Shown one piece after another: positions 12,034 to 35,672 of a stretch of DNA of 42,778 bases; the first letter of the stretch is position 1; each line of letters starts with the position of its first letter. The stretch comes from Bacillota bacterium (GTDB taxonomy: Bacteria > Bacillota > JADQBR01): positions 1-42,778 of the forward strand of contig JADQBR010000009.1 of NCBI GenBank assembly GCA_016278515.1, given 5' to 3'. The translations under genes were made by a program, and so were the position numbers. The notes beneath the pieces were generated by a model. It did not search any database, had not been told where the DNA came from, and saw only the letters and a list, made by a program, of their open reading frames with translations.

Positions 12034-12116
12034 ATCAAAAACTGAACAACGTTTGGTAATAACATACAGAAATATATTATCATGAAACTATAATTTAGAC
12101 ATAAAGGGTGAAAGCA

Positions 12117-12878
12117 ATGCATGAACAAAAGCTCAAGAATCTCTTAGCAAAACTTTCTGCTGGGGCACTTTCAGTCGATGACGCATTTCAGGAACTAAAG
12201 AACTTGCCGTTTGAAGATTTAGGTTTTGCAAAAATTGATAACCATAGACAGATCCGAAACGGTTTTCCCGAAGTGATTTACTGTGGTGGAAAGACCACGG
12301 AACATGTGGTGGCAATCATGAAGCGATTGGTGGAAGTTAGTGATAATAACGTTTTGGCTACCCGGGCGGAGAAAGAAGTCTTTGATGCTGTACTGAAGGA
12401 AATTCCAGATGCGGAGTATCACGAATTGGCGCGTTTGATTATGGTTCGCCGTGGTGCCCAGAAAGAAACAGGTAATATTTTGGTGGTAAGCGCCGGAACA
12501 TCGGATTTGCCGGTAGCGGAGGAGGCGGTATTGACTGCCGAGCTTATGGGCAATCATGTGGAACGTCTTTATGATACTGGGGTAGCGGGTATTCATCGTT
12601 TGCTTGGGCATAAAACCGTTTTAGACAAGGCTAAGGTGATCATAGTTGTTGCAGGCATGGAAGGGGCATTGGCTAGTGTGGTTGGCGGATTGGTGGATAA
12701 GCCGGTAATAGCAGTTCCCACCAGCATTGGCTATGGTGCCAGTTTCAATGGATTGGCGGCGCTTTTAAGTATGTTAAACAGCTGTGCGTCCGGCGTTACT
12801 GTAGTAAATATTGATAATGGTTTTGGCGCCGGTTATGCGGCTGCTTTAATAAATAGAATGGGAGAGTTAAACAAATGA
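12117..12878 (+). CDS. larB: LarB, nicotinate adenine dinucleotide carboxylase of nickel-pincer cofactor synthesis
   Basis: First enzyme of the nickel-pincer nucleotide pathway. It carboxylates and hydrolyses NaAD to pyridinium-3,5-biscarboxylic acid mononucleotide in the cytoplasm. From ATG 12117 it has 253 residues, the normal length; a GTG at 12108 in the same frame sits inside the AAAGGGTG ribosome site and is less likely. The C-terminal half is the PurE-like domain, with VVSAGTSDLPVAEEA around residues 123-137 and PVIAVPTSIGYGASFNGLAALL around 197-218. The N-terminal part has the family stretch LGFAKIDNHRQIRNGFPEVIYCGGKT. It overlaps larC by 4 nt. Confidence 0.93.
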   Translation: MHEQKLKNLLAKLSAGALSVDDAFQELKNLPFEDLGFAKIDNHRQIRNGFPEVIYCGGKTTEHVVAIMKRLVEVSDNNVLATRAEKEVFDAVLKEIPDAEYHELARLIMVRRGAQKETGNILVVSAGTSDLPVAEEAVLTAELMGNHVERLYDTGVAGIHRLLGHKTVLDKAKVIIVVAGMEGALASVVGGLVDKPVIAVPTSIGYGASFNGLAALLSMLNSCASGVTVVNIDNGFGAGYAAALINRMGELNK

Positions 12879-14098
12879 TGAAGATAGCTCATTTTCAATG
12901 TTCGGCTGGTATCAGCGGCGATATGATGCTAGGTGCTTTAGTTGATGCAGGTTTGGACTTTGCCAGGCTCGAACAGGAAATCAATAAGCTTAATATATCC
13001 GGTTATCGGTTAGAACATCACAGGGTAGTAAAAAACGGTATTTCCGGTACCAAAGTAGATGTCATAATTAATGAAAAACACGTACATAGGCACCTGCGTG
13101 ATATTAAAGAGATTATAGAAAATAGCAATTTGGCTTCTTTAGTAAAAGAAAAATGCTCTATAGTATTCGGAAAGATAGCGGAAGCGGAAGCAAAGGTTCA
13201 TAATTCTACCAAGGAGGAGATTCACTTCCACGAAGTAGGCTCTTTGGATGCTATTATAGACGTTGTGGGCTCTGTTGTAGGTTTGGATCTATTAGGAGTA
13301 GAGAAGGTAACGGCTTCAAAAATACATGTTGGCACCGGTTATACAAAATGTGCCCATGGAACGATTCTTTTGCCGGCCCCGGCTACATTAGAATTGCTTC
13401 AGGGAGTTCCGGTTTACTGCCAGGGTATCGAGAAAGAACTTGTCACACCCACAGGGGCGGCACTTATCACTACCCTGGCGGAGAGCTTTGGTGAAATGCC
13501 GTCTATGTCCGTTACGGATATTGGCTACGGTGCCGGTACCAGAGATTTAGATATTCCTAATCTCTTGAGAATTTCTTTAGGCGAAGCGGCTGAAGATACA
13601 GGCAGTTTTCCAGACGTGCGTTTTGGAGGTCAAGGAGACATTCATCAGGCAGAGGCAATGATGTTGGAAGTTAATATTGATGACTTGAATCCTGAATTTT
13701 ACGATTATCTGTTTAGCAGGTTATTGGCAGAAGGGGCACATGATGTCTTTCTGCAGCCAATTCAAATGAAAAAGAATCGGCCGGCTGTCAAATTGAGTAT
13801 TCTAACGTATGCATCTCAGATGGAAAGGATTATGGAAACTGTTTTTCAAGAGACTAGTACTATTGGGGTAAGAGCGTACCCGGTTACCAAGTATATGCTA
13901 CCTTATGAAATTAAAGCATTGGCCACTAAATACGGAGATGTAAGGGTAAAAGTAGCCAGCTTAAATAATACTATTACTACTATAGCTCCTGAATATGAGG
14001 ACTGCCGTTCTAAGGCTGAATCTTATGGAGAGCCAATAAAAAATGTTTACGAGCATGTAAAATCTGAAGCAAAAAAGGCTTTTAAAAAAGACGAATAG
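12875..14098 (+). CDS. larC: LarC, CTP-dependent nickel insertase of nickel-pincer cofactor synthesis
   Basis: Inserts nickel into the bisthiocarboxylate nucleotide to give the pincer cofactor of LarA-type enzymes. It has 407 residues in one uninterrupted frame; in some Lactobacillus species the gene is split into larC1 and larC2 by a frameshift, which is not so here. The N-terminus CSAGISGDMMLGALVDAG, a His-rich HVHRHL segment around residues 69-74, and HFHEVGSLDAIIDVVGS around residues 116-132 are family hallmarks. The ATG overlaps the larB stop. Neither larE (sulfur transferase) nor a larA-type enzyme is present in the window, so the pathway must be completed from elsewhere. Confidence 0.94.
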   Translation: MMKIAHFQCSAGISGDMMLGALVDAGLDFARLEQEINKLNISGYRLEHHRVVKNGISGTKVDVIINEKHVHRHLRDIKEIIENSNLASLVKEKCSIVFGKIAEAEAKVHNSTKEEIHFHEVGSLDAIIDVVGSVVGLDLLGVEKVTASKIHVGTGYTKCAHGTILLPAPATLELLQGVPVYCQGIEKELVTPTGAALITTLAESFGEMPSMSVTDIGYGAGTRDLDIPNLLRISLGEAAEDTGSFPDVRFGGQGDIHQAEAMMLEVNIDDLNPEFYDYLFSRLLAEGAHDVFLQPIQMKKNRPAVKLSILTYASQMERIMETVFQETSTIGVRAYPVTKYMLPYEIKALATKYGDVRVKVASLNNTITTIAPEYEDCRSKAESYGEPIKNVYEHVKSEAKKAFKKDE

Positions 14099-15760: not shown

Positions 15761-17200
15761 GTGAAGCCAAAAGATATTATGCGGCCTTTTCAGGCCACAT
15801 TAGGGCCCGAAAGCACATTGAAGGCAGCTATAGAGGCCATGCAGAAATGCGCTTTAAATATTATTCCCGTAACGGATGACTGGGGTCAGCTGCTGGGGAT
15901 TCTTACCCGGTCAAAACTGTTTGACTTGCTGCTACAGGAACAGCCTTTGTCGACGGTTATCAAACCTTTTTACGATACGGATGTAATTACTGTTCCCGAG
16001 GATGAGTTTTATGATGTAGAAAAATTATTTGCGGAATTCATATCAAATGAGGGAAATAGCAAGTTTTCTAAGATAAGTACAGTAATCATTACGGATAACA
16101 GTGGGACGAATCTGACCGGGGTTATTACTAAAGAAGAGCTTATTCAATATTTGATGAAAGAGGCGTATCGGTTAAAAAAACAATTGGAGTTGGCCTTGGA
16201 GGCAACACAGGAAGAACTACGGCGGGTCAAGCTAAAACAAAAGTCCAAATATTCTTTTCGCCAGTTTATTACTAATGATTCTTATATGAAGCAGTTGATT
16301 AGCATGGCGCAGAAGGCGGCGCGGCAGAACTCCACTGTTTTAATTCAGGGTGAAAGCGGAACCGGTAAGGAGTGGTTTGCCCATGCCATACATCAGGCCA
16401 GTCAGCGGGCCGGGGGGCCATTTATCACTGTAAACTGTGCGGCTTTCCCTGAACACTTGTTGGAGTCAGAATTTTTCGGTTATGAGGAAGGAGCCTTTAC
16501 TGGGGCAAATAAGCAGGGTAAGTACGGAAAACTAGACTTGGCCCATGGCGGAACGCTGTTTCTGGATGAAATCGGAGACATGTCCTTATCCCTACAATCA
16601 AAATTGCTGAGAGTACTTCAGGAAAGAGAGTTTTACCGAGTTGGTGGTACGGAGAAAATATCCGTAGACGTGCGAGTCATTGCAGCAACCAACCAGTCCT
16701 TGGAAAATCTGGTCACTGAGAAAAGGTTTCGGGAAGACCTGCTTTATCGTCTTAACGTTGTTACATTCAATCTGCCGCCATTGAGAGAGCGAGGAGAGGA
16801 CTTAACTCTATTGGCGGACAATTTTATCAAAGAGCTGGATATTACCCTCAATACTAATATTAAGGGTATAAATAACGATGCTTTGGACAGGCTGAAAAGC
16901 TACCATTGGCCGGGAAACATTAGGGAACTGAGAAACGTAATCGAACGAATGATGATTTTTACGGAACAAGGAGAAATTGGTATTTGTCATATGCCGGACA
17001 AAATAAAAGGCTCGGGCTGGCAGGCGGCAGGCGGGGATAATCCGTCCCAGGTAAATGATATTATGGAGCAAAAACAAAGAGAAGTTATCCTAGAAGTATT
17101 AGGACAGACCGGCGGCAACAAGACCCAAGCAGCTAAAACGCTGGGTATGAGTCGATCTACACTATACGAAAAGATAAAGAAATTTGACTTAACGTATTAA
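15761..17200 (+). CDS. Sigma-54-dependent transcriptional activator with CBS-pair sensor
   Basis: Enhancer-binding protein that would remodel sigma-54 RNA polymerase by ATP hydrolysis. It has 479 residues. Order: two CBS motifs (about residues 1-60 and 68-132), a short coiled segment (about 134-165), the AAA+ domain (about 168-400) with Walker A GESGTGKE, the sigma-54 contact loop GAFTGA (about 244-249) and Walker B LFLDEIGD, then a Fis-type helix-turn-helix at the end (GNKTQAAKTLGMSRSTLYEK). No receiver, GAF or PAS domain is present, so the CBS pair is the sensor; such pairs often bind adenosine nucleotides. The start is GTG 15761 behind a long G-rich ribosome site. A sigma-54-like promoter lies 175 nt downstream before the next operon, its obvious target. 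Confidence 0.95.
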   Translation: MKPKDIMRPFQATLGPESTLKAAIEAMQKCALNIIPVTDDWGQLLGILTRSKLFDLLLQEQPLSTVIKPFYDTDVITVPEDEFYDVEKLFAEFISNEGNSKFSKISTVIITDNSGTNLTGVITKEELIQYLMKEAYRLKKQLELALEATQEELRRVKLKQKSKYSFRQFITNDSYMKQLISMAQKAARQNSTVLIQGESGTGKEWFAHAIHQASQRAGGPFITVNCAAFPEHLLESEFFGYEEGAFTGANKQGKYGKLDLAHGGTLFLDEIGDMSLSLQSKLLRVLQEREFYRVGGTEKISVDVRVIAATNQSLENLVTEKRFREDLLYRLNVVTFNLPPLRERGEDLTLLADNFIKELDITLNTNIKGINNDALDRLKSYHWPGNIRELRNVIERMMIFTEQGEIGICHMPDKIKGSGWQAAGGDNPSQVNDIMEQKQREVILEVLGQTGGNKTQAAKTLGMSRSTLYEKIKKFDLTY

Positions 17201-17375: not shown

Positions 17376-17391
17376 CGGCATAGAAATTGCT
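17376..17391 (+). promoter_or_regulatory. Sigma-54-type promoter of the acid-degradation operon
   Basis: CGGCAT-AGAAA-TTGCT has GG at 17377-17378 and GC at 17389-17390, the required spacing of 10 nt between the dinucleotides. The -12 half is consensus; the -24 half differs at two positions. A start near 17402 would place the GGGAGGAGGGG ribosome site and ATG 17426 just downstream. Confidence 0.68.
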
Positions 17392-17425
17392 TCTATTAAA
17401 TGGAAAGTACGGGAGGAGGGGTCAG

Positions 17426-17893
17426 ATGGTCGTTGAGGGGAAAAAAGGTTATCGGTTCAAGCCCTACTCAATGGTAGTGGAACGAGGTAAAATCAAGGAA
17501 TTTGCCATGGCAGTCGGTGATGATAATCCCATATATTATGAAAAAGACGCAGCGACAAAAGCAGGATTTAAGGACATTACCGTACCGCCTACTTTTTTTA
17601 CGGTTATTGACATGTGGGCAGGTCCAAATTTTGAGGAAATTTGTCGTGAGTTGGAGTTAGACCCGGTGATGGTACTGCATGGAGAGCAAGAATACGAGTA
17701 TTTTTACAATATTTATCCAGGAGATGAAATTAAGACTGTATCTACTGTTCAGGATGTAGCTACTCGCACAGGCAGTATGGGCGGAATGAACATCTATTTA
17801 ATGGAAACAAACTATTACAACCAAAACGGACAGAAGGTAATGATTGCTCGCTCCAAGATCATTGAAAGAGTTAGGGGGCAAAGGAATGAATAA
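17426..17893 (+). CDS. MaoC-like hydratase, N-terminal-type subunit
   Basis: Hot-dog-fold protein of 155 residues resembling the N-terminal MaoC dehydratase half (FAS1-like, HadA/HadC type). It probably pairs with the next gene product to hydrate an enoyl-CoA. The family opening is clear: GYRFKPYSMVVERGKIKEFAMAVGDDNPIYYEKDAA, followed by VPPTFFTVIDMW and an LHGEQEYEYFYNIYPGD stretch. ATG 17426 was chosen because GGGAGGAGGGG ends 4-5 nt before it; upstream in-frame codons would run into the promoter. It is the first gene of a ten-gene run and overlaps the next gene by 8 nt. This half usually lacks the complete catalytic Asp-His pair, which the partner provides. Confidence 0.87.
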   Translation: MVVEGKKGYRFKPYSMVVERGKIKEFAMAVGDDNPIYYEKDAATKAGFKDITVPPTFFTVIDMWAGPNFEEICRELELDPVMVLHGEQEYEYFYNIYPGDEIKTVSTVQDVATRTGSMGGMNIYLMETNYYNQNGQKVMIARSKIIERVRGQRNE

Positions 17894-18290
17894 AAAGTAC
17901 GAAGTGGGGTATCACTTTCCTTCCCTAACGAAGCCTGCGGTTACTAAAGTGCAGCTTGCCAAGTATGCAGGGGCCTCCGGCGATTTTAACCCGCTGCATC
18001 TAGACGATAGAGTGGGGAAAGAGGCAGGAATTGGGGGCGTAATAGCCCACGGCATGTTAATTATGGGCATGGCCGGTGAAGCAATTGGCAGTTGGGTACC
18101 GAGGATATCGTTAAAGAGTTTTTCTGTACGATTTAAGGCTATGACGGTTCCCGGAGAGGTTATTACATTGACAGGCAGGGTAGTAGATAAGGAAAAGACT
18201 GATAACGGCAGTTTAATCATCTGTCAGGTGGAGGCTAAAAATCATTCGGATGAGATTAAGTTAAGTGGACGATTTGCGGCGCTGTTGTGA
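17886..18290 (+). CDS. MaoC-like enoyl-CoA hydratase subunit
   Basis: Second hot-dog subunit, 134 residues from ATG 17886, behind AGGGGGCAAAGG and overlapping the previous gene by 8 nt. It has the R-hydratase catalytic signature: GASGDFNPLHLDDRVGKEAG (about residues 27-46), with the Asp and His of the D-x-N-P-x-H motif, then GVIAHGMLIMGMAGEAI. The size and pairing are those of a heterodimeric (R)-specific enoyl-CoA hydratase as in HadAB/HadBC or ChsH1-ChsH2. In the operon it would perform the hydration step of the beta-oxidation-like route. The stereochemistry is assumed from family membership, not seen. Confidence 0.9.
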   Translation: MNKKYEVGYHFPSLTKPAVTKVQLAKYAGASGDFNPLHLDDRVGKEAGIGGVIAHGMLIMGMAGEAIGSWVPRISLKSFSVRFKAMTVPGEVITLTGRVVDKEKTDNGSLIICQVEAKNHSDEIKLSGRFAALL

Positions 18291-18322
18291 GTTGTTGAAT
18301 ATGAGAAGGGGGCGGTTAGTTG

Positions 18323-19135
18323 ATGAGCTATTTAAGCGGTAAGGTCGCCATTATTACCGGGGCAGGCAGGGGGATTGGCAAGGCGGCAGCCTTACTCTTT
18401 GCAAAAGAAGGAGCAAAGGTAGTGGTGACAGATATTGATGAACAGTCGGTTAAAGAGACTGAGGCTGAAATAAAGAAATTGGACGGTGAGGCCCTTAGTT
18501 TAAGCGGGGATATTACAGCGCCTGATTTTCCGGGTCAATTAATAAACACGTCAGCTGCCGAGTTTGGCAGACTGGATATTTTGGTTAACAACGCGGGCTA
18601 TACCTGGGACGGTATGATTCATAAGATGTCCGATAAGCAGTTCCAAGCCATGCTGGACGTTCATCTGTTGGCGCCGTTCCGTCTAATTAGGGCAGCGGCT
18701 CCATATATGCGTGATAAGGCAAAGGAAGAGATGACCCGAGGCCAGGTAGTGCAGCGAAAGATTGTCAATGTGACGTCTGTTGCAGGCTTGATGGGTAATG
18801 TGGGCCAGGCAAATTATTCTGCAGCAAAAGCTGGGATAGTTGGCTTTACCAAAACTATCGCTCGAGAATGGGGTCCATATAACATTAACTGCAACGCAGT
18901 CGGCTTTGGCATTGTTGACACCCGTTTAACCCAAGCCAAAGAAATGGGAGAGATGGTTGACGGTAAGCCGGTGGGGATTCCGGAAAAGATGCGTTCCATG
19001 ATGATTAAGATGGTTCCTCAGCAGCGATCCGGTACTATCGAGGAGGCTGCAGCAGGCATTTTCTATTTGGCATCGCCCCTGTCTGATTATGTAAATGGGG
19101 AAGTACTGAAGGTAGACGGTGGATTTTACACTTAA
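18323..19135 (+). CDS. Short-chain dehydrogenase/reductase (3-hydroxyacyl-CoA dehydrogenase-like)
   Basis: Cytoplasmic NAD(P)-dependent oxidoreductase of the classical SDR family, 270 residues. It has the TGAGRGIG cofactor motif (about residues 13-20), NNAG (about 88-91), and the catalytic Ser with YxxxK in NVTSVAGLMGNVGQANYSAAKAG (about 149-171). ATG 18323 was preferred to the adjacent TTG 18320 since AAGGGGG lies 8-10 nt upstream. Placed after the MaoC pair and before the thiolase-like genes, it most likely oxidises the 3-hydroxyacyl-CoA. An insertion around residues 133-143 (RDKAKEEMTRGQ) is longer than in FabG and is common in multifunctional-type SDRs. Confidence 0.92.
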   Translation: MSYLSGKVAIITGAGRGIGKAAALLFAKEGAKVVVTDIDEQSVKETEAEIKKLDGEALSLSGDITAPDFPGQLINTSAAEFGRLDILVNNAGYTWDGMIHKMSDKQFQAMLDVHLLAPFRLIRAAAPYMRDKAKEEMTRGQVVQRKIVNVTSVAGLMGNVGQANYSAAKAGIVGFTKTIAREWGPYNINCNAVGFGIVDTRLTQAKEMGEMVDGKPVGIPEKMRSMMIKMVPQQRSGTIEEAAAGIFYLASPLSDYVNGEVLKVDGGFYT

Positions 19136-19152: not shown

Positions 19153-20565
19153 TTGGCAGGAATAACAGGTTACGGGGCTAGAATCCCGTATTTCCGGTTA
19201 GAGAAAAAAAAGATTGGTGAAGCATGGGGTACTTATGGTGCCGGGGAAAAGGCCGTGGCAAATCATGATGAAGACAGTGTTTCTCTTGCTGTGGCGGCGG
19301 CTGTTGACTGCGGTAAAGAGACGGCGGATGCCGACTGTCTTTACTTGGCTACAACCACCGGGCCTTATGGGGAAAAGGGCTCGGCCAGTACAGCCGCCAT
19401 GGCGCTAGGTCTTAAAAAAGACGTACGTACAATGGATATTACCGGAAGCCTCAAAGGGGGCATATCAGGTTTGTTGTCCGGGTTGGAGCAGGCCGAATCC
19501 GGCATCAAAACCTTGGTTGCTATGTCTGATTGCAGGCTGGGCGCGCCTCAGGGACCTTACGAGCAGGTACTGGGGGACGGAGCTGCAGCGTTTGTTTTAG
19601 GTAATGATGACATTATTGCTGAGTTAGAGGCCAGTGAAAGCGCTAATCAAGAAGTGATGGCTTACTGGCGCAGCAGCACGGATCGTTTCCTTCAGACTGG
19701 GGAAGACCGTTTTGCATCCACTAAGTATGTGGAAATATTAATGGCTGCTATGGGCAATTTTGCTAAACAAACTGGGGCAACCATCAAGGATTTTGACAAA
19801 GTTGTCTTGGATGCACCTTCTGCTAAGCTTCACAAGTTAACTGCTAGGATGTTGAAGGTATCGCCTGAACAATTAATTGAGGGAATGTATGACAGCATTG
19901 GCCATACCGGCTGTGCCAATGTGGGCCTCATGCTGGTTAGTGCCTTAAGTAATGCTGAACCCGGGGAGCGAATACTAGTCGCTGCCTTTGGTGAAGGGTG
20001 CCATATTGCAGCTTTTAAGGTTACGGAAAAGATTGTCTCCTTTAAACCAAAGCGCCCATTAAAAGAACAGTTGGCGAATAAGGATAATAGCGTCAGATAC
20101 ACGGACTATCTTAAGTGGCGAGGTATTATCGAGACGGAACCACCTCGAAGACCTGCAGTGCCTAAGCCTTCGCAGCCGGCTCTCTACCGGGGATATGATC
20201 AGAATTTAGGATTTATAGGCAGCCGGTGCAAAAAATGCGGTACGCCTCAGTTTCCAAAACAAAGAGTTTGCGTTCATTGCCAGGCGAAAGATGAAATGGA
20301 GGATTATTCTTTCAAGAATAAAACAGCCAGGCTAGCGACATACACCGTGGATTACTTGGCGGCCTCTGTGGCTCCGCCTACTGTCATTGGGGTAGTGGAC
20401 TTTCAAGGCGGCGGCAGAATGCTGGCAGAAGTTACTGACTGCCGCCCTGAACAGATGAGGATAGGCATGGAATTGGATTTTTGCTTTAGAAGGCTGCAGG
20501 TGGCCGACGGAATAAGCAACTATTTTTGGAAAGCGGTACCTAAGCGAGGTGGGACCAATGACTAG
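19153..20565 (+). CDS. HMG-CoA synthase-like protein fused to DUF35 zinc-ribbon/OB domain
   Basis: Two-part protein of 470 residues. The N-terminal 320 residues look like the HMG-CoA synthase/thiolase fold (ITGYGARIPYFRLEKK opening, DSVSLAVAAAVDC, GDGAAAFVLG). The C-terminal part (about 345-465) is a DUF35 module with a rubredoxin-like zinc ribbon (Cys359, Cys362, Cys373, Cys376) and an OB domain. Where HMG-CoA synthases have the nucleophilic Cys (NACYGG), this protein reads TGSLKGG (about 97-103), so the usual acyl-Cys chemistry is unlikely. The start is TTG 19153 behind GGAGGGGGGAG. It overlaps the thiolase-like gene by 8 nt. In archaea separate HMG-CoA synthase, thiolase and DUF35 proteins form a complex that channels acyl-CoA; a fused version of that assembly is the best guess. 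Confidence 0.85.
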   Translation: MAGITGYGARIPYFRLEKKKIGEAWGTYGAGEKAVANHDEDSVSLAVAAAVDCGKETADADCLYLATTTGPYGEKGSASTAAMALGLKKDVRTMDITGSLKGGISGLLSGLEQAESGIKTLVAMSDCRLGAPQGPYEQVLGDGAAAFVLGNDDIIAELEASESANQEVMAYWRSSTDRFLQTGEDRFASTKYVEILMAAMGNFAKQTGATIKDFDKVVLDAPSAKLHKLTARMLKVSPEQLIEGMYDSIGHTGCANVGLMLVSALSNAEPGERILVAAFGEGCHIAAFKVTEKIVSFKPKRPLKEQLANKDNSVRYTDYLKWRGIIETEPPRRPAVPKPSQPALYRGYDQNLGFIGSRCKKCGTPQFPKQRVCVHCQAKDEMEDYSFKNKTARLATYTVDYLAASVAPPTVIGVVDFQGGGRMLAEVTDCRPEQMRIGMELDFCFRRLQVADGISNYFWKAVPKRGGTND

Positions 20566-21739
20566 AGGTATTAAAGATAAGGTTGCTATTATCGGCATGG
20601 GCTGCACTCAATTTGGAGAGCACTGGGATAAAAGCACCGACGACCTGTTGGTGGATGCGGCTTATGAAGCTTTTGCTGATGCCGGTTTAGGCCCAGAGGA
20701 CATAGATGCATACTGGCTGGGTACCATGCAGTCCGGTTATGCCGGGATTGTTTTATCAGGGCCACTAAAGTCCCAGTATAAGCCGGTTACTAGGGTTGAG
20801 AATATGTGCGCAACTGGATCGGACGCATTTCGTAACGCCTGTTATGCAGTTGCCAGTGGCGCATATGATATGGCGATGGCTATTGGTGTTGAAAAGCTGA
20901 AGGATTCCGGCTATAGCGGTCTCACTATTGCCGAGCCCCCTCATGATGGCACCAAGTTGGATGTTACTGCTCCGGCTGCATTCTCGCTGCTGGCGCCGGC
21001 GTACTTTAACAAGTTTGGCGTAGACCCCAAGCAGGGGAAAGAAGTGCTGGCTAAGATTGCGTGGAAAAATCATAAGAACGGCAGCCTAAATCCAAAGGCT
21101 CAATACCGGACGGAAATTCCCATGGAAAAAATCTGTTCATCGCCGATGGTAGCGGCACCGCTGGGTATTTTGGACTGTTCCGGCGTCGCTGACGGTGCGG
21201 CGGCAGCTATTATTGTCCGGGCCGAAGATGCTGAAAAATATTGCAAACAGCCCACCTTTGTTAAAGCCTTATCCGTTTCTGCAGGTCCGGGCCATGGTGC
21301 ACTGCATCAAGATTTCGATTTTACTTCCATTCCGGAAAACTGTGCAGCGGCAAAGGACGCCTATGACCAAGCCGGTATTAAAAACCCCAGGCAGGAGTTG
21401 AGCATGGCAGAAGTGCATGACTGTTTTACACCGACCGAGTTGGTTATTTATGAAGACTTAGGTTTTAGTAAACGGGGTGAAGGATGGAAGGATGTTTTGG
21501 CCGGAACATTTGAACTGGCGGGTGAACTGCCGGTGAATCCGGATGGCGGTCTTAAATCTTTCGGTCACCCAATCGGCGCCAGTGGCTTGCGGATGCTTTA
21601 TGAAGCTTATTTGCAGTTTCAGGGAAAGGCCGGTCAGCGGCAGCTTAAAGATCCCAAACTGGCATTAACTCATAACTTAGGCGGATATCCTTGGCAGTGC
21701 GTTTGTTTTATTTCCATCGTCGGTTCTCAGCTGGGCTAA
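20558..21739 (+). CDS. Thiolase-like acyl-CoA acyltransferase (SCP-x type)
   Basis: Thiolase-superfamily protein of 393 residues from ATG 20558 (GAGGTGGG upstream), overlapping the previous gene by 8 nt. The nucleophilic Cys84 is present in NMCATGSDAFRNA and the catalytic His337 in SFGHPIGASG. A second conserved region reads AEVHDCFTPTELVIYEDLG. The C-terminal CxG motif of classical thiolases is replaced by THNLGGYPWQC, as in SCP-x-type members. It should cleave the 3-oxoacyl-CoA, or do a retro-aldol as Ltp2 does, probably in complex with the DUF35 fusion encoded just upstream. The retained Cys and His favour thiolysis. The substrate is unknown. Confidence 0.9.
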   Translation: MTRGIKDKVAIIGMGCTQFGEHWDKSTDDLLVDAAYEAFADAGLGPEDIDAYWLGTMQSGYAGIVLSGPLKSQYKPVTRVENMCATGSDAFRNACYAVASGAYDMAMAIGVEKLKDSGYSGLTIAEPPHDGTKLDVTAPAAFSLLAPAYFNKFGVDPKQGKEVLAKIAWKNHKNGSLNPKAQYRTEIPMEKICSSPMVAAPLGILDCSGVADGAAAAIIVRAEDAEKYCKQPTFVKALSVSAGPGHGALHQDFDFTSIPENCAAAKDAYDQAGIKNPRQELSMAEVHDCFTPTELVIYEDLGFSKRGEGWKDVLAGTFELAGELPVNPDGGLKSFGHPIGASGLRMLYEAYLQFQGKAGQRQLKDPKLALTHNLGGYPWQCVCFISIVGSQLG

Positions 21740-21769
21740 TTAAAAATTGATGATGAAGGGAGGTAAGTG

Positions 21770-22909
21770 ATGAAGCGCAGACTACTAGAGGAAGAGCATA
21801 GAATTTTTCAAACAGCAGTCAGATCTTTTCTGGACAAGGAAGCCGTTCCCTATTTTGACCAGTGGGAAGAAGAACGGATGGTGCCCCGGGAATTTTGGAT
21901 TAAACTGGGAAAGCAGGGGTACCTATGTCCCCAGGCAGCCGAACAGTATGGAGGGATAGGAGCCGATTTCATCTATAATGTCATTATTAACGAAGAATTT
22001 GCACGGGTAGGTTTAGGACTGATGGGTGTTGGCCTCCATAACGATATCATAGCGCCCTATTTGGAGACCTACGGCAGTACTGAGCAAAAGGAACATTGGC
22101 TGCCAAAGTGTATCTCGGGTGAAAGTATTTTAGCCATTGCTATGACCGAACCGGGGGCGGGTAGTGACCTGCAGGCAATCAAAACGACTGCTTTCAGGGA
22201 TGGAGACAGCTATATCCTTAACGGCCAGAAAACTTTTATTTCCAATGGTATTTGTTCGGATTTGGTGTTGGTTGCCTGTAAGACGGACCCGAAGGCCCAA
22301 CCGGCCTATAAAGGGATTAGCCTGATGCTGGTGGAACGAGATACACCCGGTTTCACCAGGGGCAGGAAAATGGACAAAATGGGTATGCATAGCCAGGATA
22401 CGGCGGAACTGTTCTTTGAGGATTGCCGGGTGCCGGCAGAAAACTTGATAGGTGAAGAAGGAAAAGGTTTCTACTACATGATGAACAGCTTGCCTCGGGA
22501 ACGGCTTGTGACAGCAATAACCTCCCAAGTGGCAGCAGAAGAGATGCTGCGAGAAACGTTAGAATATACCGGTATTCGAAAGGCTTTTGGTAGACCCCTC
22601 AAAGATCAGCAGCATATCCAATTTACGCTGGCGGAGCTCAAATCAGAGATTGTCTTAGGGCGAACATTCGTGGACCGAGTTATTGAAGCTTACCTGGCAG
22701 GCGAGGACATGGGTACCGAATCTTCAATAGCTAAGTGGTGGGTGACTGAGATGGCCAACCGGGTGGCGTACCAATGTTTGCAGCTCCACGGCGGCTACGG
22801 TTATATGGAGGAATATCCCATTGCCCGCTGGTACCGGGATATTCGCGTCACCCCAATATATGCCGGCAGCAACGAAATAATGAAAACCATCATCGCCCGT
22901 ACCCTTTGA
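21770..22909 (+). CDS. Acyl-CoA dehydrogenase (first of two)
   Basis: FAD-dependent acyl-CoA dehydrogenase of 379 residues that introduces the alpha-beta double bond and passes electrons to ETF. The start is ATG 21770 with AAGGGAGGT 6 nt upstream; the GTG just before it is in frame but too close. Family signatures: AMTEPGAGSDLQAIKT (about 122-137), the RKAFGRPL stretch, QLHGGYGYMEEYPIARWYRDIRV near the C-terminus, and the catalytic Glu in YAGSNEIMKTI. The stop codon lies in the first bases of the interspersed repeat at 22906-22992, which separates this gene from the second acyl-CoA dehydrogenase. Confidence 0.93.
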   Translation: MKRRLLEEEHRIFQTAVRSFLDKEAVPYFDQWEEERMVPREFWIKLGKQGYLCPQAAEQYGGIGADFIYNVIINEEFARVGLGLMGVGLHNDIIAPYLETYGSTEQKEHWLPKCISGESILAIAMTEPGAGSDLQAIKTTAFRDGDSYILNGQKTFISNGICSDLVLVACKTDPKAQPAYKGISLMLVERDTPGFTRGRKMDKMGMHSQDTAELFFEDCRVPAENLIGEEGKGFYYMMNSLPRERLVTAITSQVAAEEMLRETLEYTGIRKAFGRPLKDQQHIQFTLAELKSEIVLGRTFVDRVIEAYLAGEDMGTESSIAKWWVTEMANRVAYQCLQLHGGYGYMEEYPIARWYRDIRVTPIYAGSNEIMKTIIARTL

Positions 22910-23022: not shown

Positions 23023-24261
23023 ATGTTTGATTTTATGATGACACCTGAGCAGAAAGCGCTGCAGCAGGAAACACGGGAATTTGTTAAAACCATTCCCAAA
23101 CAATTATTGGTTGATATGGATCAGGATAAGGTGCAATACCCCAGACAATATATCGAAGATCTTGCGGCCAGAAACCTGTTGGGTTTACGATTTCCAAAGG
23201 AATTTGGCGGTAGAGGGCTGGATTGGAGTACGGAGATTATTGCTTTGGAAGAAGTAGGTGTATTGGGGACTTCTTTAGGGTGCTTATTTTCGTTACCCAG
23301 TATTATTGGTGAGGCGATCAATAAATTTGGTACCCAGTCACAAAAAGAAAAATACTTGACGAAGATTACCTCAGGCGAATTGACGGTGGCGGAAGGACTA
23401 ACCGAACCGCGAGGCGGTTCTGATTTCTTTGGCAGCACTACTAAGGCTACCAAGGAAGGCGACCATTATATTATTAGAGGACAAAAGCGTTTTGTAGTCG
23501 GTGCCGAAGGTGCAGATCTATTCCTAATCTATGCCCGTACGGATGAAACTGTGCCGGCACACAAGGGTATAAGTGCATTTTTAGTTGAACGAGGTCCTGG
23601 GGTAAAAGCCGATTACATCTATGGACTAATGGGGACTCGCGGCGGAGGTGCCGGCCGACTAATCTTTGATGATGTAAAAGTTCCTGCAGAAAATATAGTA
23701 GGCGAGGAAAACGGGGCAACAGCAATATTTTATCAGATGATGATTCCCGAACGCATGACCAGTGCGGCCGGGGCCCTAGGCATGGGTAGGGCAGCCTTGG
23801 AGGTTGCAACAAGATACAGTGATCGCCGGAAAGCTTTTGGCCAACAAATAAGAAAATTTGAAGCTGTAAGTTTTAAAGTTGCAGACAGTATTACCAAGCT
23901 GGATGCTGCCCGAAGTCTTGTCTATAGCGCCGCTCAGGCAGTGGATCAAGGGGCACCGTCAGAGACTGCAAGGCGTATGGTTTCTGAGGCCAAAAAATTT
24001 GCAACTGACAGCGCGTGGGAGATCGTTAACCATGCCATGCAAATTATGGGTGGTATTGGTTATACGGATGTCTATCCGATCGAAAAATTATTAAGGGATA
24101 TTCGTTTAATTATGATTTGGACGGGAACTAACGAGATTATGGATTTGATTATTCAACATGAGTATTACAAAGAATTGTTAGGTGCAAAGGAAAATGTTCC
24201 CCGAGATGTGGAACACGATGCGGTCAATGCTGATGCGGTAGAAGAAAAAATATATGAATAG
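23023..24261 (+). CDS. Acyl-CoA dehydrogenase (second of two)
   Basis: A 412-residue acyl-CoA dehydrogenase, distinct in sequence from the one upstream. Signatures: [17 protein letters not shown] (about 125-141), [45 protein letters not shown], and the catalytic Glu in [12 protein letters not shown]. It also has a 30-residue polar tail beyond the usual end ([20 protein letters not shown]). ATG 23023 has AAGGGAG 8 nt upstream. Two neighbouring, unlike acyl-CoA dehydrogenases may form a heteromer, as ChsE1/ChsE2 do in steroid side-chain degradation, or may act on successive intermediates. Which of these holds cannot be decided from the sequence. Confidence 0.93.
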
Positions 24262-24274
24262 GGAGGTTTAATAA

Positions 24275-25768
24275 ATGGGAGAAGCTTTACACATGTTGTT
24301 AGAACGAAATGCGCGCAAGTACCCTAATGAATGCGGCGTATTGAGCCTGGAGTATCAAACGGAGTGGTCATGGCAGGAACTTAATCAAAGGGCAAACGGT
24401 GTGGCAGAAACTATGTTAAAGAAAGGTTTAAAGAAAGGTGACAGAGTGGCCATGGTTATTCCTAACCGTCCGGAATTTTTAGCCGTCTATTTCGGAGTGC
24501 TGAAAGCGGGAGGCGTTGTAGTCCCGGTAAATGTTCGTTTAGCCAAACCGGAAGTGGAGTACTTACTTAATGACAGTCAGGCTGTAGGTGCGGTGTTCGA
24601 TCCAGGCATGGGATTTTCCGGCCAAGAAATTTCAGAAAAGTGCGAAATATTGCAGTTTTATCTTACTATCCAGGAGCTGGAATACGGAAATTATGATGAC
24701 CCGGAGTTGGATATCTCAGTTTATGATGTAGCGGAAATATTATATACATCCGGAACTACGGGTAAACCAAAAGGAGTGGTACTGACTCATAATTGCGTAT
24801 ACGAAGTAGGGACCATGATGGCTTATGAAGCAGAGATAGAATATGGAGACCGGGCACTATTGCTGATGCCGTTGACACATTCTGCGCCCCTCAATTTATT
24901 TGTTATCGGCGCTGTTTACGCTGGGGCTGCGTGTGTGGTCGGAAACTTCACTACTCCTCAAGCCATTCTAAAAACCTGCCACGAAGCAAAAACTACTCAT
25001 TTTTTTGGTGCTCCGGTGGCTTATTTATTAGCCTTACAGATTGATAATTTTAACGATTATGATTTATCTAGTACTAAATTGTGGACTTACGGTGGTGCAC
25101 CCATGGCTAAAGAAGCCATACACAAAATAATGAGCAAGTTTCCTGGGAAATTCATGAGCCTTTATGGATTGACGGAAAGCGGACCTAATGGTGTAGCCAT
25201 GTATCATGAACAACACGAAGAGCATGCCGGCAGTATTGGTAATAAGGCGGCTGTCAACTGCGAGTACAAAGTGCTCACTGATGAGGGGAAAATTGCCGGT
25301 CCGGGGGAGAAAGGGGAGGTATACCTTAAATCGCCATCGGTGATGCTGGAGTATTTGAATAAACCTGAGGCCACTGAAGAGGTATTAGAGAACGGATGGA
25401 TTAAGACAGGAGATATTGCAGAAATTGATGATAAAGGATACCTTTGGATAATGGGACGAAAAAAAGATATTATTCTGTCAGGCGGGGTAAATGTTTATCC
25501 GAAAGAAATCGAAGATGCACTAGCCCAGCATTCTGCGGTAGCAGATGTAGCAGTAATAGGAGTTCCCCACAAGGATTGGGGAGAAACTGTCATGGCAGTT
25601 GTAGTACTGAAACCGGGAGTAGAAAAGCCGGATAAGAAAGAATTACAGGAGTTTTGTGGTAAATTTCTAGCGGACTTTAAGCTGCCTAGGATGATAAGAT
25701 TTGATGAGGCGATACCCAGAAATGCTTCGGGTAAAATCCTGAAACATTTAATTAGTAGAGACATATAA
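24275..25768 (+). CDS. Acyl-CoA synthetase (AMP-forming, class I adenylate-forming)
   Basis: ATP-dependent ligase that activates a carboxylic acid to its CoA thioester, 497 residues. Motifs: the P-loop YTSGTTGKPKGVVLTH (about 157-172), GLTESGPNG (about 296-304), and the hinge region GDIAEIDDKGYLWIMGRKKDIILSGG split by residues around 375-405. The catalytic Lys near the C-terminus is in RNASGKILKH. ATG 24275 has GGGAGG 8 nt upstream and follows the acyl-CoA dehydrogenase by 13 nt. It provides one way to start the pathway; the CaiB-type transferase at the operon end provides another. The acyl chain cannot be predicted. Confidence 0.93.
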   Translation: MGEALHMLLERNARKYPNECGVLSLEYQTEWSWQELNQRANGVAETMLKKGLKKGDRVAMVIPNRPEFLAVYFGVLKAGGVVVPVNVRLAKPEVEYLLNDSQAVGAVFDPGMGFSGQEISEKCEILQFYLTIQELEYGNYDDPELDISVYDVAEILYTSGTTGKPKGVVLTHNCVYEVGTMMAYEAEIEYGDRALLLMPLTHSAPLNLFVIGAVYAGAACVVGNFTTPQAILKTCHEAKTTHFFGAPVAYLLALQIDNFNDYDLSSTKLWTYGGAPMAKEAIHKIMSKFPGKFMSLYGLTESGPNGVAMYHEQHEEHAGSIGNKAAVNCEYKVLTDEGKIAGPGEKGEVYLKSPSVMLEYLNKPEATEEVLENGWIKTGDIAEIDDKGYLWIMGRKKDIILSGGVNVYPKEIEDALAQHSAVADVAVIGVPHKDWGETVMAVVVLKPGVEKPDKKELQEFCGKFLADFKLPRMIRFDEAIPRNASGKILKHLISRDI

Positions 25769-25853: not shown

Positions 25854-26822
25854 ATGATTGAAGAAGTGTTACCAAACTTGTACAGGCTGGAAGCGCCACT
25901 GCCCAATAATCCACTTAAGGCTATTAACTCCTACGTTATAAAAGGGCATGACAGAAATCTTATGGTTGATACCGGTATGAACAGAGAAGAGTGTTTAGAT
26001 GCACTAACAGCTGGGCTTCAGGAATTAGAGGTAAAGCTTGAGGAGACTGATTTTTTTATAACTCACATGCATGCGGATCATTCCGGCCTGGTAGCTCAAT
26101 TGTCAACAAAAGAATCAAAGATTTTCTGCGGCGATGCTGACGCAGTGGTAATTAATCACGGCATAGATTGGGAAGAATTATTAGAACATGCTCGGATGAC
26201 CGGTTTTCCCGCAATAGAGTCGAGAGAGGCTATTAACCGGCATCCCGGGTACAAATATAGCGGGAAAGGTCAGTTGAACATTTACTCGGTGAAGGATAAC
26301 GATTGTATTACAGTTGGTGATTATACCTTTCAATGCATTGAGACGCCGGGACATACCTATGGTCACATCTGCCTTTACGAACCGGACAAAAAGATTTTGA
26401 TTTCAGGTGATCACATATTAAGCAATATCACCCCAAACATTTCCCAATGGTTGGATGATGACAAATGTATGGAAGATTACATGAGTAGTTTGGATAAGGT
26501 CTACCACTATGATGTTGATATAGTGCTGCCAGGCCATCGTCGGATTATTTATGACCATAGGAAAAGAATAGATGAGCTGAAGGAACATCATAAGAGCAGA
26601 AACAATGAAATTTTAGGACTTCTTAACAGCAAGGGTAAAACCGCTTATCAAATGGCTTCGGAAATGCCTTGGGATTTGACCTATAAGACATGGGAGCAGT
26701 TTCCCATTCCACAGAAATGGTTTGCCACAGGGGAGGCCAATGCTCATTTGAAATATCTAGAAGGGCAGGGTCTAGTGGAAAAAAGCATAGAGAATAGTAA
26801 TTTTGTTTATAGGTTGCCGTAG
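25854..26822 (+). CDS. MBL-fold metallo-hydrolase
   Basis: Metallo-beta-lactamase-fold hydrolase of 322 residues. The metal site is intact: THMHADH (His71, His73, Asp75, His76), then ETPGHTYGH (about 162-170), ISGDHIL with the bridging Asp, and LPGHRR. The C-terminal 80 residues (KTAYQMASEMPWDLTYKTWEQFP and after) look like the winged-helix tail of LACTB2-like proteins. ATG 25854 has AGAGAGGTG 5-8 nt upstream. Within a CoA-ester operon it could be a thioesterase or lactonase; family membership does not say. It follows the ligase by 85 nt with a hairpin between, and precedes the CoA-transferase by 40 nt. Confidence 0.88.
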   Translation: MIEEVLPNLYRLEAPLPNNPLKAINSYVIKGHDRNLMVDTGMNREECLDALTAGLQELEVKLEETDFFITHMHADHSGLVAQLSTKESKIFCGDADAVVINHGIDWEELLEHARMTGFPAIESREAINRHPGYKYSGKGQLNIYSVKDNDCITVGDYTFQCIETPGHTYGHICLYEPDKKILISGDHILSNITPNISQWLDDDKCMEDYMSSLDKVYHYDVDIVLPGHRRIIYDHRKRIDELKEHHKSRNNEILGLLNSKGKTAYQMASEMPWDLTYKTWEQFPIPQKWFATGEANAHLKYLEGQGLVEKSIENSNFVYRLP

Positions 26823-26862: not shown

Positions 26863-28008
26863 GTGTACGAATTTCTGAAAGAAATGCGTATTTTAGACTT
26901 GACCAGACTACTTCCGGGTGGTTATGCAACACAGCTTTTGGCCGATTTGGGTGCAGAGGTTTTGAAAGTGGAAGATCCTTGGCAGGGTGACTACATGCGT
27001 TGGATGGAGCCACATTTTCCAGGCACAAAGGAAAGCAGCCTGTTTTGGGGACTAAATCGTAATAAGAAAAGTATCAAATTAAACTTAAAAAGCAAAACGG
27101 ATAAAGAAGTATTTCTAAAGCTTGTGGGTAAGTATGACGTTGTGATAGAGGGTTTTAGGCCTGGTGTAATGGAAAAGCTGGGCTTGGGATACGAGGTTTT
27201 GAAAGAGGTTAATCCTAGAGTTATACTTTGCTCTGTATCCGGCTACGGACAAGATGGTCCGTACAAGGACCGGGTAGGCCACGATATAAATTATAATGCC
27301 ATCGCGGGTGTTCTTGGTTTAACCGGCAAGGAAGACGGCCCGCCTGCCATTCCTGCGGTGCAGATTGCAGATATTGGCGGTGGGGCGCTAATGTCAGTCA
27401 TCGGTATTCTAACCGCTTATATCAATCGTCAGCATACTGGACAAGGCCAATACATAGATATTTCTATGTTGGATGGGGTAGTTTCCTGGATGTCCATGCT
27501 TCTTATGCAGCATACCGCCGGTGATTCCAGCCTGGCCCGGGGCCAGTCCCTGCTTAATGGCGGCTACCCTTGCTATAGCATTTATGAAACAAAAGATGAA
27601 AAATATATGAGCTTGGGAGCTTTGGAACCGAAGTTTTGGGAGAATTTTTGTGAAATAGTTGATAGGGATGATCTGCTGCCACAACAGTTTTCCCGGGAGG
27701 CTGAAATTAAAGAAGAAGTTGCAGTAATTTTTAAGAGTAAAACACGGGATCAATGGACCAAGAGTTTTGCTGATAGAGACGTCTGCTGCGAGCCCGTTTT
27801 GGACATTGGAGAAACAATTAATCACCCACAGGTGGTATTTAGGAAATTATTAACCGAACTGCCCCATCCTGTAGCCGGTGCGGTAAAAGTTGCCAGTAAT
27901 CCTATTAAGTTTAATGAGAAGGAAACAGTTATTGATCAGCAGCCCCCGGGTCACGGGGAGCATACTAAAGAGGTGTTGGAGGATTTGGGTATTATTTTAG
28001 CAGAATAG
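26863..28008 (+). CDS. CaiB/BaiF family (class III) CoA-transferase
   Basis: Moves CoA from a donor thioester to a free acid without ATP. It has 381 residues, the family length. The opening is typical: MRILDLTRLLPGGYATQLLADLGAEVLKVE (written across residues 8-37). Next come NRNKKSIKLNLKSK, a GFRPGVMEKLGLGYE segment, and the catalytic Asp in QIADIGGGALMSVIG (about residue 169). GTG 26863 has GGGGG 8 nt upstream and no closer ATG fits the family N-terminus. As the last gene of the ten-gene run it would recycle CoA from a pathway product, such as an acyl-CoA, to the incoming acid. This is analogous to BbsEF in benzylsuccinate activation. Confidence 0.93.
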   Translation: MYEFLKEMRILDLTRLLPGGYATQLLADLGAEVLKVEDPWQGDYMRWMEPHFPGTKESSLFWGLNRNKKSIKLNLKSKTDKEVFLKLVGKYDVVIEGFRPGVMEKLGLGYEVLKEVNPRVILCSVSGYGQDGPYKDRVGHDINYNAIAGVLGLTGKEDGPPAIPAVQIADIGGGALMSVIGILTAYINRQHTGQGQYIDISMLDGVVSWMSMLLMQHTAGDSSLARGQSLLNGGYPCYSIYETKDEKYMSLGALEPKFWENFCEIVDRDDLLPQQFSREAEIKEEVAVIFKSKTRDQWTKSFADRDVCCEPVLDIGETINHPQVVFRKLLTELPHPVAGAVKVASNPIKFNEKETVIDQQPPGHGEHTKEVLEDLGIILAE

Positions 28009-33779: not shown

Positions 33780-34845
33780 CTATACGGAACCAAACATTCG
33801 GCTTATTCCTATTTCCGAAAAACCCAAGCTTTCGGCTTTAGTTATTTTTCCATTGGCTACAGCTAATATTTCTTGAAATATCTCCTTGCTGGCTCCTGTA
33901 ATACTAATTTTTCCATCAAGGATAGCTCCAGCATTATAGTCAATAATATCATCAAGTTTTCTAAACGTACCTGGATTACCTGTAACTTTAATAACAGGTA
34001 CCAAAGGATTTCCAACAGGTGTGCCTCTTCCCGTTGTAAAAACGCATATTTGCGCACCACCTGCTACCATACCCGTAACAGACTCCACATCATAGCCTGG
34101 TGTATCCATCATAACTAAACCCTTTTCTGAAGGTCGTTGAGCATAATTTAACACCTCAACCAAAGGAGCAGTTCCACCTTTGTGAATGCAACCTAAGGAC
34201 TTTTCTTCAATGGTGGTTAACCCCCCTTTTATATTACCAATTAGACGCACGACGAGCAAAGATATGTTCCGCACCAATAAATTCTGTAGTTTCAGATATG
34301 ATACTAGTCCCACCAGCCGCTACTATAAGGTCACTCGCTAAGCCCACTGATGGATTCGCTGCGATACCGGAAGTAGGGTCTGATCCTCCACATTCCAATG
34401 CAACTATTAATTCTGAAATATCTACATCTTCTCTTTCGAGAAGAGACATCTCTTGAACCATTTTCCGTGCCAAGGATACTCCTTTCGCTATAGAATTAAC
34501 GATGCCCCCACCTTCTTGAATGACGATAAGTTCTAAAGGTTTATTGGTCATTTCTTGTATTTTATTTGTTAATATATCAGGCTGCACTACCTCACAGCCA
34601 AGGCTAACTACAATAGTACCGTATATATTGGGGTTTGCTGCAAAACCTGAGAGTGTTCTGACAGTTTGATTAACATCTTCCCCTATTTGGCCACAGCCAT
34701 ATTGATTTGTTATTGTTATTGTACCCGGAACCTGTTGGGATATTAATCTAGAAGCCTCAGCAGAACATGATACACTAGGTAGGATTAATACCTTATTCCG
34801 TATACCGAAGCGACCGTCATGGCGCCTATATCCTTTAAATTTCAA
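33780..34845 (-). pseudogene. UxaA/SuyB-type dehydratase large subunit, frameshifted
   Basis: The reading frame from TTG 34845 (behind GGGGGTG) gives a UxaA-type N-terminal part: KFKGYRRHDGRFGIRNK, a NQYGCGQ Cys motif and ECGGSDPTSGIAANPSVG. It stops at 34234-34236 shortly after GAEHIFARRAS. Homologous protein resumes in another frame with LIGNIKGGLTTIEEKSLG and continues through MDTPGYDVESVTGMVAGGAQ and TTGRGTPVGNP to 33780. Intact relatives have about 30 residues between the ARRA and GGLTTIEEKS parts that are absent here. So a deletion with frameshift near 34235-34255 probably inactivated the gene. Relatives are altronate dehydratase or (2R)-sulfolactate sulfo-lyase large chains. A sequencing error would explain the frameshift but not the missing residues. 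Confidence 0.8.
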
Positions 34846-34849
34846 ATCT

Positions 34850-35131
34850 TCACCCCCTTTTACTTTCAAGATTATGAGTATGCACATAACTGCCCAGAAG
34901 AATATCTTGACTGGCACGCCCAATGACTTCTCCGTATTTCAGTAGATTCTCACCTGATTGCAATAACCTGATAGAAAATTTATGATAAATAGGAATATCA
35001 TCGAGTAAAGTAATTTTTAACAATTTTTGTCCCTTCTTAACTTGTACTTTTGTATCTTTTGTCAGATTGGCTAAGGCTACTGCAACATCATCCTGATCGG
35101 TAATTAATAAGCTATGAAAATTTTTATCCAA
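34850..35131 (-). CDS. SAF-domain small subunit of UxaA/SuyA-type dehydratase
   Basis: A 93-residue SAF-domain protein, the size of separate small subunits such as SuyA. The conserved run PIYHKFSIRLL, GENLLKYGEVIGRASQDI and GSYVHTHNLES is typical of the UxaA N-terminal domain. It starts at TTG 35131 with GGGGGTGAAG upstream, and the large-subunit frame begins 4 nt after its stop, so the two form one unit. Since the large subunit is broken, this gene is probably a left-over with no partner, although its own frame is intact. The substrate could have been altronate, another sugar acid or sulfolactate. Confidence 0.83.
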   Translation of the reverse strand: MDKNFHSLLITDQDDVAVALANLTKDTKVQVKKGQKLLKITLLDDIPIYHKFSIRLLQSGENLLKYGEVIGRASQDILLGSYVHTHNLESKRG

Positions 35132-35656: not shown

Positions 35657-35672
35657 TGGCACAGTTATTGCT
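35657..35672 (+). promoter_or_regulatory. Sigma-54-type promoter, near-perfect
   Basis: TGGCAC-AGTTA-TTGCT, with GG at 35658-35659 and GC at 35670-35671, is an essentially consensus -24/-12 promoter. A start near 35683 leaves a short leader with the GGAGGG ribosome site before ATG 35717. Confidence 0.88.

Follow-up and report, generated by a model that had tools for sequence, protein, structure and literature searches.

Within a 42,778-nt stretch of DNA from a Bacillota bacterium (JADQBR010000009.1, positions 1 to 42,778 of the forward strand; assembly GCA_016278515.1), hereafter the window, two overlapping genes encode a fusion of a 3-hydroxy-3-methylglutaryl-CoA (HMG-CoA) synthase-like domain with a DUF35 domain and, directly downstream, a thiolase. 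The window is one entire contig of a 4.27-Mb genome. Our analysis indicates that the two genes probably specify one obligate enzyme, a thiolytic β-oxidation thiolase in which the fusion acts as a non-catalytic scaffold and substrate-pocket subunit. The pair consists of the following:

19153–20565, + strand: HMG-CoA synthase-like (Cys-less)/DUF35 (zinc ribbon plus OB fold) fusion, 470 aa, TTG start (open reading frame (ORF) list, profiles, AlphaFold2 (AF2) model).
20558–21739, + strand: SCP2-type thiolase with intact nucleophilic Cys, HDCF motif and GHP histidine, ATG start (NF004810, motifs, AF2 model).

The TTG start of the fusion gene (19153) is preceded by a strong Shine–Dalgarno sequence (ggaggggg). 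Profile searches placed the synthase-like domain at residues 1–~327, zf-ChsH2 at 354–379 and OB_ChsH2_C at 390–446, with both PF12172 and PF01796 over their cut-offs for the DUF35/ChsH2-type part. An earlier interpretation of this DNA made without database searches (the sequence-only reading) had proposed a zinc ribbon formed by Cys359, Cys362, Cys373 and Cys376; these residues are present and are kept in 95/95 aligned fusions, and the window fusion is the sole zf-ChsH2 match in the genome. The HMG-CoA synthase-like fold that had also been proposed was recovered in the AF2 model (predicted local distance difference test (pLDDT) 92.2, predicted template modelling score (pTM) 0.92), whose best PDB matches were PhlA, archaeal HMG-CoA synthase (HMGCS) and MucA. 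The match to archaeal HMGCS (6ESQ chain I) was full-length (TM 0.89, normalised on the target; root-mean-square deviation 1.6).

The active site of the synthase has been lost. Alignment to 6ESQ chain I pairs FA-C-KAG of the archaeal enzyme with GS-L-KGG of the window fusion, in agreement with the earlier observation that TGSLKGG stands where the nucleophilic Cys is expected, and shows replacement of the whole triad (Cys114 by Leu100, Glu82 by Thr68 and the His of FHQPN by Asp). Across the 95 fusions, the nucleophile column is occupied by Leu (59), Thr (10), Val (10), Ile (9), Met (3), Pro (3) and Ser (1) and never by Cys, while the column of the catalytic Glu holds Thr in 93. Every relative read has likewise lost the triad, and this half can no longer serve as a synthase. 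A displaced nucleophile was considered and rejected: a Cys lies within four columns of the site in 15/95 fusions, the window protein having none, and the commonest non-zinc cysteines that it shares, Cys53 (72/95) and Cys127 (61/95), do not align with the synthase nucleophile. At the level of the alignment, therefore, no other Cys appears to have taken over the active-site position, an outcome that would have undermined the sequence-only reading.

Homology and automatic names (PRK04262 match) would make the fusion a functional HMG-CoA synthase serving isoprenoid synthesis or ketogenesis. However, all three catalytic residues are replaced, and the protein scores below both archaeal HMG-CoA synthase equivalog cut-offs (TIGR00748, 139.6 versus 353.35; NF003274, 198.6 versus 244). 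HMG-CoA reductase was searched for and not found in the source genome, nor in nine other genomes with a fusion, and the source genome encodes DXR of the methylerythritol phosphate pathway, which together exclude a role in the mevalonate route. We consider a functional synthase scarcely credible.

Loss of the triad has not been accompanied by decay. Seven positions of the fusion (Thr68, Glu74, Arg128, Asp142, Glu184, Gly31 and Ala36) are kept in at least 93% of the 95 proteins and differ from both HMGCS and PhlA, and this conservation across several phyla argues against a relic. A chance or pseudogene fusion was likewise ruled out by the 95 strongly conserved relatives. The same positions raise the alternative that the synthase-like half is an enzyme with a new activity adjoining the thiolase, for example a hydrolase or ring-opening enzyme using Thr68, Glu74, Arg128, Asp142 and Glu184, and another activity was indeed speculated upon for the 'HMG-CoA synthase' of Novosphingobium tardaugens (PMC7793797). 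Yet the old site contains no conserved candidate nucleophile column, and the Cys is also lost in an unfused sister group and in PhlA, in whose complex the residues of PhlC alone act in acyl transfer. A new activity thus seems rather unlikely to us.

The thiolase, in contrast to the synthase half, looks fully competent as judged from its residues. Translation most likely begins at ATG 20558, although the longest ORF starts at GTG 20549, which is also possible. With the ATG start, the gene overlaps the end of the fusion gene by 8 nt, suggesting translational coupling. The protein scores 622.9 bits against NF004810 (cut-off 403) and, as the sequence-only reading had it, possesses Cys84 and His337 (ATG numbering; Cys87 and His340 when counted from GTG 20549), with the HDCF motif at residues 290–293. 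In the alignment of thiolase partners, the nucleophilic Cys is kept in 81/83, the HDCF Cys in 82/83 and the GHP His in 82/83. The AF2 model (pLDDT 88.7, pTM 0.91) matches ST0096, the thiolase of the archaeal complex, BbsB and SCP2 thiolases. No second thiolase of this subtype is present in the genome.

These motifs also bear on the retro-aldol option that the sequence-only reading had left open, namely that the thiolase is a retro-aldolase acting on 3-hydroxyacyl-CoA with the fusion as its DUF35 partner. Such an arrangement is known from the steroid aldolases Ltp2–ChsH2 and Sal–Shy, in which a DUF35 domain docks on an SCP2-thiolase fold and gives the substrate cleft its shape, and the fold and the DUF35 partnership are common to Ltp2, Sal and the window pair. 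However, the aldolases carry YDHF/YDCY motifs, whereas the window protein has HDCF with a nucleophilic Cys and a GHP His, and their DUF35 domain is fused to a MaoC hydratase rather than to a synthase-like domain. Further, the short-chain dehydrogenase/reductase (SDR) of the window operon would make a 3-keto substrate, and Novosphingobium ES2-1 has a separate aldolase-type protein with its own DUF35 beside a fusion–thiolase pair. Retro-aldol cleavage is therefore disfavoured and, in our estimation, very unlikely.

The two genes travel together. A scan for relatives of the fusion, restricted to one genome per species, returned at least 450, and the best 80 come from Bacillota, Chloroflexota, Thermodesulfobacteriota, Binatota, Myxococcota and Pseudomonadota. 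Of the 81 assessable fusions at the best 80 loci, 77 have a thiolase directly downstream. Among 299 related genomes sampled, a fusion lies next to each of the ten thiolases that reach at least 49% identity, and each of the ten genomes with a close fusion also carries a thiolase of the window subtype; the next thiolases are at most 40% identical, and most of those listed sit in three-gene sets of thiolase, synthase-like and DUF35 genes. Relatives of the source genome with close homologues are Bacillota, including Peptococcaceae/Desulfotomaculum-like organisms, and plasmid-borne fusions occur in Rhodococcus, Mycobacterium, Sphingobium, Haloferax and others. Distances among fusions and among their thiolase partners are strongly correlated (Mantel r = 0.81; largest of 1000 permutations, 0.09), a value that partly reflects the shared species history of the genomes.

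Several Chloroflexota loci encode two tandem fusion–thiolase pairs (L059, L065, L067, L070, L074, L075 and L105). In six such loci, the nearest relatives of fusion and thiolase agree in 8/12 cases. Of six tandem pairs compared, five show greater divergence between the fusion paralogues (0.46–0.53) than between the thiolase paralogues (0.32–0.39), a pattern to be expected were the fusion to determine specificity.

A phylogeny of the fusion, which the sequence-only reading had recommended, was midpoint-rooted and contained a very long MucA branch. All fusions form one clade (support 100/99), apart from PhlA, MucA, archaeal HMGCS (6ESQ_I) and the protein L017u, and are adjoined by unfused Bacillota proteins that likewise lack the Cys (99/98). 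Unfused sets in the order thiolase, synthase-like, DUF35 were observed in Bacillota at loci L012, L013, L014, L015 and L016; in the four read (L012, L013, L015 and L016), the synthase-like proteins, which belong to this sister group, are all without the nucleophilic Cys.

A precedent for the architecture is the archaeal thiolase/HMGCS/DUF35 complex (thermolithotrophicus, PDB 6ESQ/6ET9), which has the same three domains and whose chains I and A match the window pair by sequence and fold. There, however, the domains are on three separate chains and the HMGCS is catalytic (Cys114, Glu82), whereas the window joins the synthase-like and DUF35 parts in one protein that has no triad, in a genome without HMG-CoA reductase. 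The Friedel–Crafts acylase PhlACB (P. protegens, PDB 5M3K/5MG5) combines a thiolase-fold catalytic subunit, a DUF35 linker and PhlA, a synthase-like protein that, like the fusion, is without the Cys (Gly115) and the Glu (Cys83). All three subunits are needed for function, although acyl transfer relies on residues of PhlC alone. The precedent of PhlA, a subunit still required after loss of both residues, supports a scaffold role for the fusion. In MucABC (Streptococcus macacae, PDB 9VBO/9VBT), a synthase-like chain without the Cys and a thiolase-like chain are present in one solved complex.

These systems offer another alternative, in which the window complex runs synthetically and transfers acyl groups to give a C-acylated product, as in PhlACB, given that Cys-less synthase-like subunits are otherwise found in PhlACB and MucABC. 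The resemblance has limits. PhlACB is encoded by three separate genes, transfers acyl groups to phenols without CoA and has a different active-site context in PhlC; MucABC is an acyltransferase of separate chains, distant in sequence from the fusions. In the tree, the fusions fall outside the PhlA/MucA group, PhlA grouping instead with archaeal HMGCS, and the genomic context consists of catabolic β-oxidation genes. We hold a synthetic direction to be highly improbable.

The adjacency in 77/81 loci, the one-to-one co-occurrence, the correlated distances, the homology to solved complexes and the loss of the triad together support the proposal, already made in the sequence-only reading, that the Cys-less synthase half is a partner and scaffold of the thiolase. 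Its further suggestion of a distinct kind of complex was too strong. The thiolase, synthase-like and DUF35 domains are encoded together in the window as they are in the archaeal, PhlACB and MucABC complexes, synthase-like subunits without the Cys were already represented by PhlA and MucABC, and the fusion family itself numbers at least 450 relatives. The novelty lies in the fusion, its own clade with a conserved pocket signature, its pairing with a true degradative thiolase across many phyla and a candidate role for a gene of oestrogen clusters that is annotated as HMG-CoA synthase and has had no assigned function. The literature searched, which left most subscription journals outside its coverage, contained no characterisation of the fusion.

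The surrounding genes point to β-oxidation:

15761–17200, + strand: sigma-54-dependent activator, apparently CBS pair–AAA–Fis, probable operon regulator (read from translation).
17376–17391, + strand: sigma-54 promoter-like site CGGCATAGAAATTGCT, upstream of the operon (two mismatches to consensus).
17387–17893, + strand: MaoC/FAS1-type dehydratase, the HadA/MFE-2-hydratase-N-like half of a two-gene (R)-enoyl-CoA hydratase (profiles).
17844–18290 (longest ORF start), + strand: MaoC dehydratase, HadB-like half (profiles).
18320–19135, + strand: SDR, probable 3-hydroxyacyl-CoA dehydrogenase, FabG-like (profiles).
21767–22909, + strand: acyl-CoA dehydrogenase 1 (profiles).
23023–24261, + strand: acyl-CoA dehydrogenase 2 (profiles).
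24275–25768, + strand: AMP-forming acyl-CoA ligase, candidate for substrate activation (profiles).
25854–26822, + strand: metallo-β-lactamase-fold hydrolase, possible thioesterase, weakly conserved in context (profiles).
26863–28008, + strand: CaiB/family III CoA-transferase, candidate for substrate activation (profiles).

The HadA-like protein matches the MFE-2 hydratase-2 N profile; 17387 is the start of the longest ORF, and the real start of this gene is probably further in. A MaoC pair and SDR stand beside the fusion–thiolase pair in 12/80 loci (e.g. Brevibacillus, Alkalihalobacillus, Oceanobacillus and Desulfotruncus), and an acyl-CoA dehydrogenase directly follows the thiolase in the Brevibacillus and Alkalihalobacillus loci too. 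Peroxisomal β-oxidation of 2-methyl-branched acyl-CoAs is laid out in this way, with a (3R)-hydratase/dehydrogenase ahead of an SCP2-type thiolase, and a branched or bulky substrate may accordingly be inferred for the window enzyme. The access to an unusual acyl-CoA envisaged in the sequence-only reading is thus plausible on the catabolic context of the operon. The promoter-like site at 17376–17391 is only suggestive given its two mismatches and the frequency of such sites in the window (33 found versus 22 expected).

On this basis, the window pathway would begin with activation by the ligase or CoA-transferase, proceed through the acyl-CoA dehydrogenases, the MaoC hydratase pair and the SDR, and end at the thiolase complex, forming a (3R)-type β-oxidation module whose layout resembles the MFE-2/SCPx route by which peroxisomes process 2-methyl-branched acyl-CoAs. 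In the last step, the β-ketoacyl group of 3-ketoacyl-CoA would be taken up by the thiolase Cys and cleaved thiolytically by CoA, assisted by HDCF and the GHP His. The fusion would take the place of two subunits, HMGCS and DUF35, which in the archaeal complex are separate chains. Through DUF35 it may dock on the thiolase as in the solved complexes, helping to form the acyl/CoA pocket, and its synthase-like body would occupy the place of archaeal HMGCS or PhlA while no longer condensing anything. The intact but differently decorated pocket of this body, lying beside the thiolase site, would accommodate and select the bulky or branched acyl group.

Besides the share of species history in the Mantel correlation, several points weigh against this proposal. 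The support for an association of fusion and thiolase is indirect, and adjacency and correlated distances would also fit two enzymes of one pathway. The presence of two acyl-CoA dehydrogenases and two activating enzymes in the operon makes several substrates or cycles possible, and the conserved pocket residues could, as discussed, signify a new catalytic activity.

BbsAB, benzoylsuccinyl-CoA thiolase, pairs a thiolase with a DUF35 zinc-finger subunit and ends a β-oxidation-like pathway that includes a CoA-transferase, an acyl-CoA dehydrogenase, a hydratase and an SDR. Its structure (PDB 7PXP) matches the fold of the window thiolase, and, as in Ltp2–ChsH2 and Sal–Shy, DUF35 helps to shape the active site of the thiolase fold, but BbsAB has no synthase-like domain. 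The anaerobic toluene (Bbs) pathway was rejected for the window genes on scores far below the cut-offs (BbsA, 26.5 versus 250 bits; BbsB, 151.4 versus 750 bits). Nor is this pathway indicated by the glycyl radical enzymes: neither of the two pyruvate formate-lyase-like enzymes found in the genome is a benzylsuccinate synthase, one being a 4-hydroxyproline dehydratase and the other, below every listed cut-off, matching choline trimethylamine-lyase best.

Elsewhere in the window, larB- and larC-like genes for nickel-pincer cofactor synthesis lie adjacent to each other (12108–14098, + strand), and a larA-like gene was not noticed among the ORFs read. A perfect match to the sigma-54 consensus (TGGCACAGTTATTGCT, 35657–35672, + strand) lies shortly ahead of a gene at 35717 for a 3-hydroxyacyl-CoA dehydrogenase. 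An altronate-hydrolase/UxaA-like gene (33780–34923, − strand) is apparently split by a frameshift into two overlapping ORFs in different frames (34923–34234 and 34313–33780), representing a pseudogene or an assembly error, and a malate/lactate-dehydrogenase-like (Ldh2) ORF (41538–42593, + strand) lies near the contig end.

A similar pair occurs in an oestrogen-type cluster. Ibero et al. (PMC7793797) described, next to a thiolase of the edc oestrogen cluster in N. tardaugens, a gene for an 'HMG-CoA synthase' (EGO55_13555), noting that an HMG-CoA synthase made no sense in oestrogen degradation and that a role could not be assigned. The genes of Novosphingobium ES2-1 syntenic to EGO55_13555 and EGO55_13550 encode a Cys-less synthase-like/OB fusion (HSLRAG) and an HDCF thiolase, making EGO55_13555, by synteny, a candidate thiolase-partner fusion. 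This pair is 34% (fusion) and 47% (thiolase) identical to that of the window and presumably handles a different substrate. The ES2-1 oestrogen-type cluster (L117:8995-15102) encodes, besides the pair, an aldolase-type YDAF protein without the nucleophilic Cys and a stand-alone DUF35.

Public names of the fusion include 'OB-fold domain-containing protein', 'hydroxymethylglutaryl-CoA synthase' and '3-oxoacyl-ACP synthase III C-terminal domain' protein, and in bacteria that degrade pollutants or steroids its close relatives still bear the label 'HMG-CoA synthase'. The pair is carried by at least several hundred genomes. Once the fusion is interpreted as a subunit of the thiolase, spurious mevalonate steps disappear from annotations, and the oestrogen-cluster gene that Ibero et al. 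(PMC7793797) left unassigned acquires a role that can be tested. More tentatively, and at somewhat less than even confidence, we suggest that these pairs may constitute a large class of degradative thiolase complexes that has gone unrecognised. In it, a one-time HMG-CoA synthase would have been remodelled, with conserved pocket residues of its own, into a substrate-reading subunit fused to a DUF35 docking domain, and a change of partner would re-target one thiolase framework to sterically demanding (branched, cyclic or steroid-derived) acyl-CoAs. The subunit interpretation also makes the pair a natural experiment in a degradative enzyme, with a dead enzyme domain retained as a specificity subunit.

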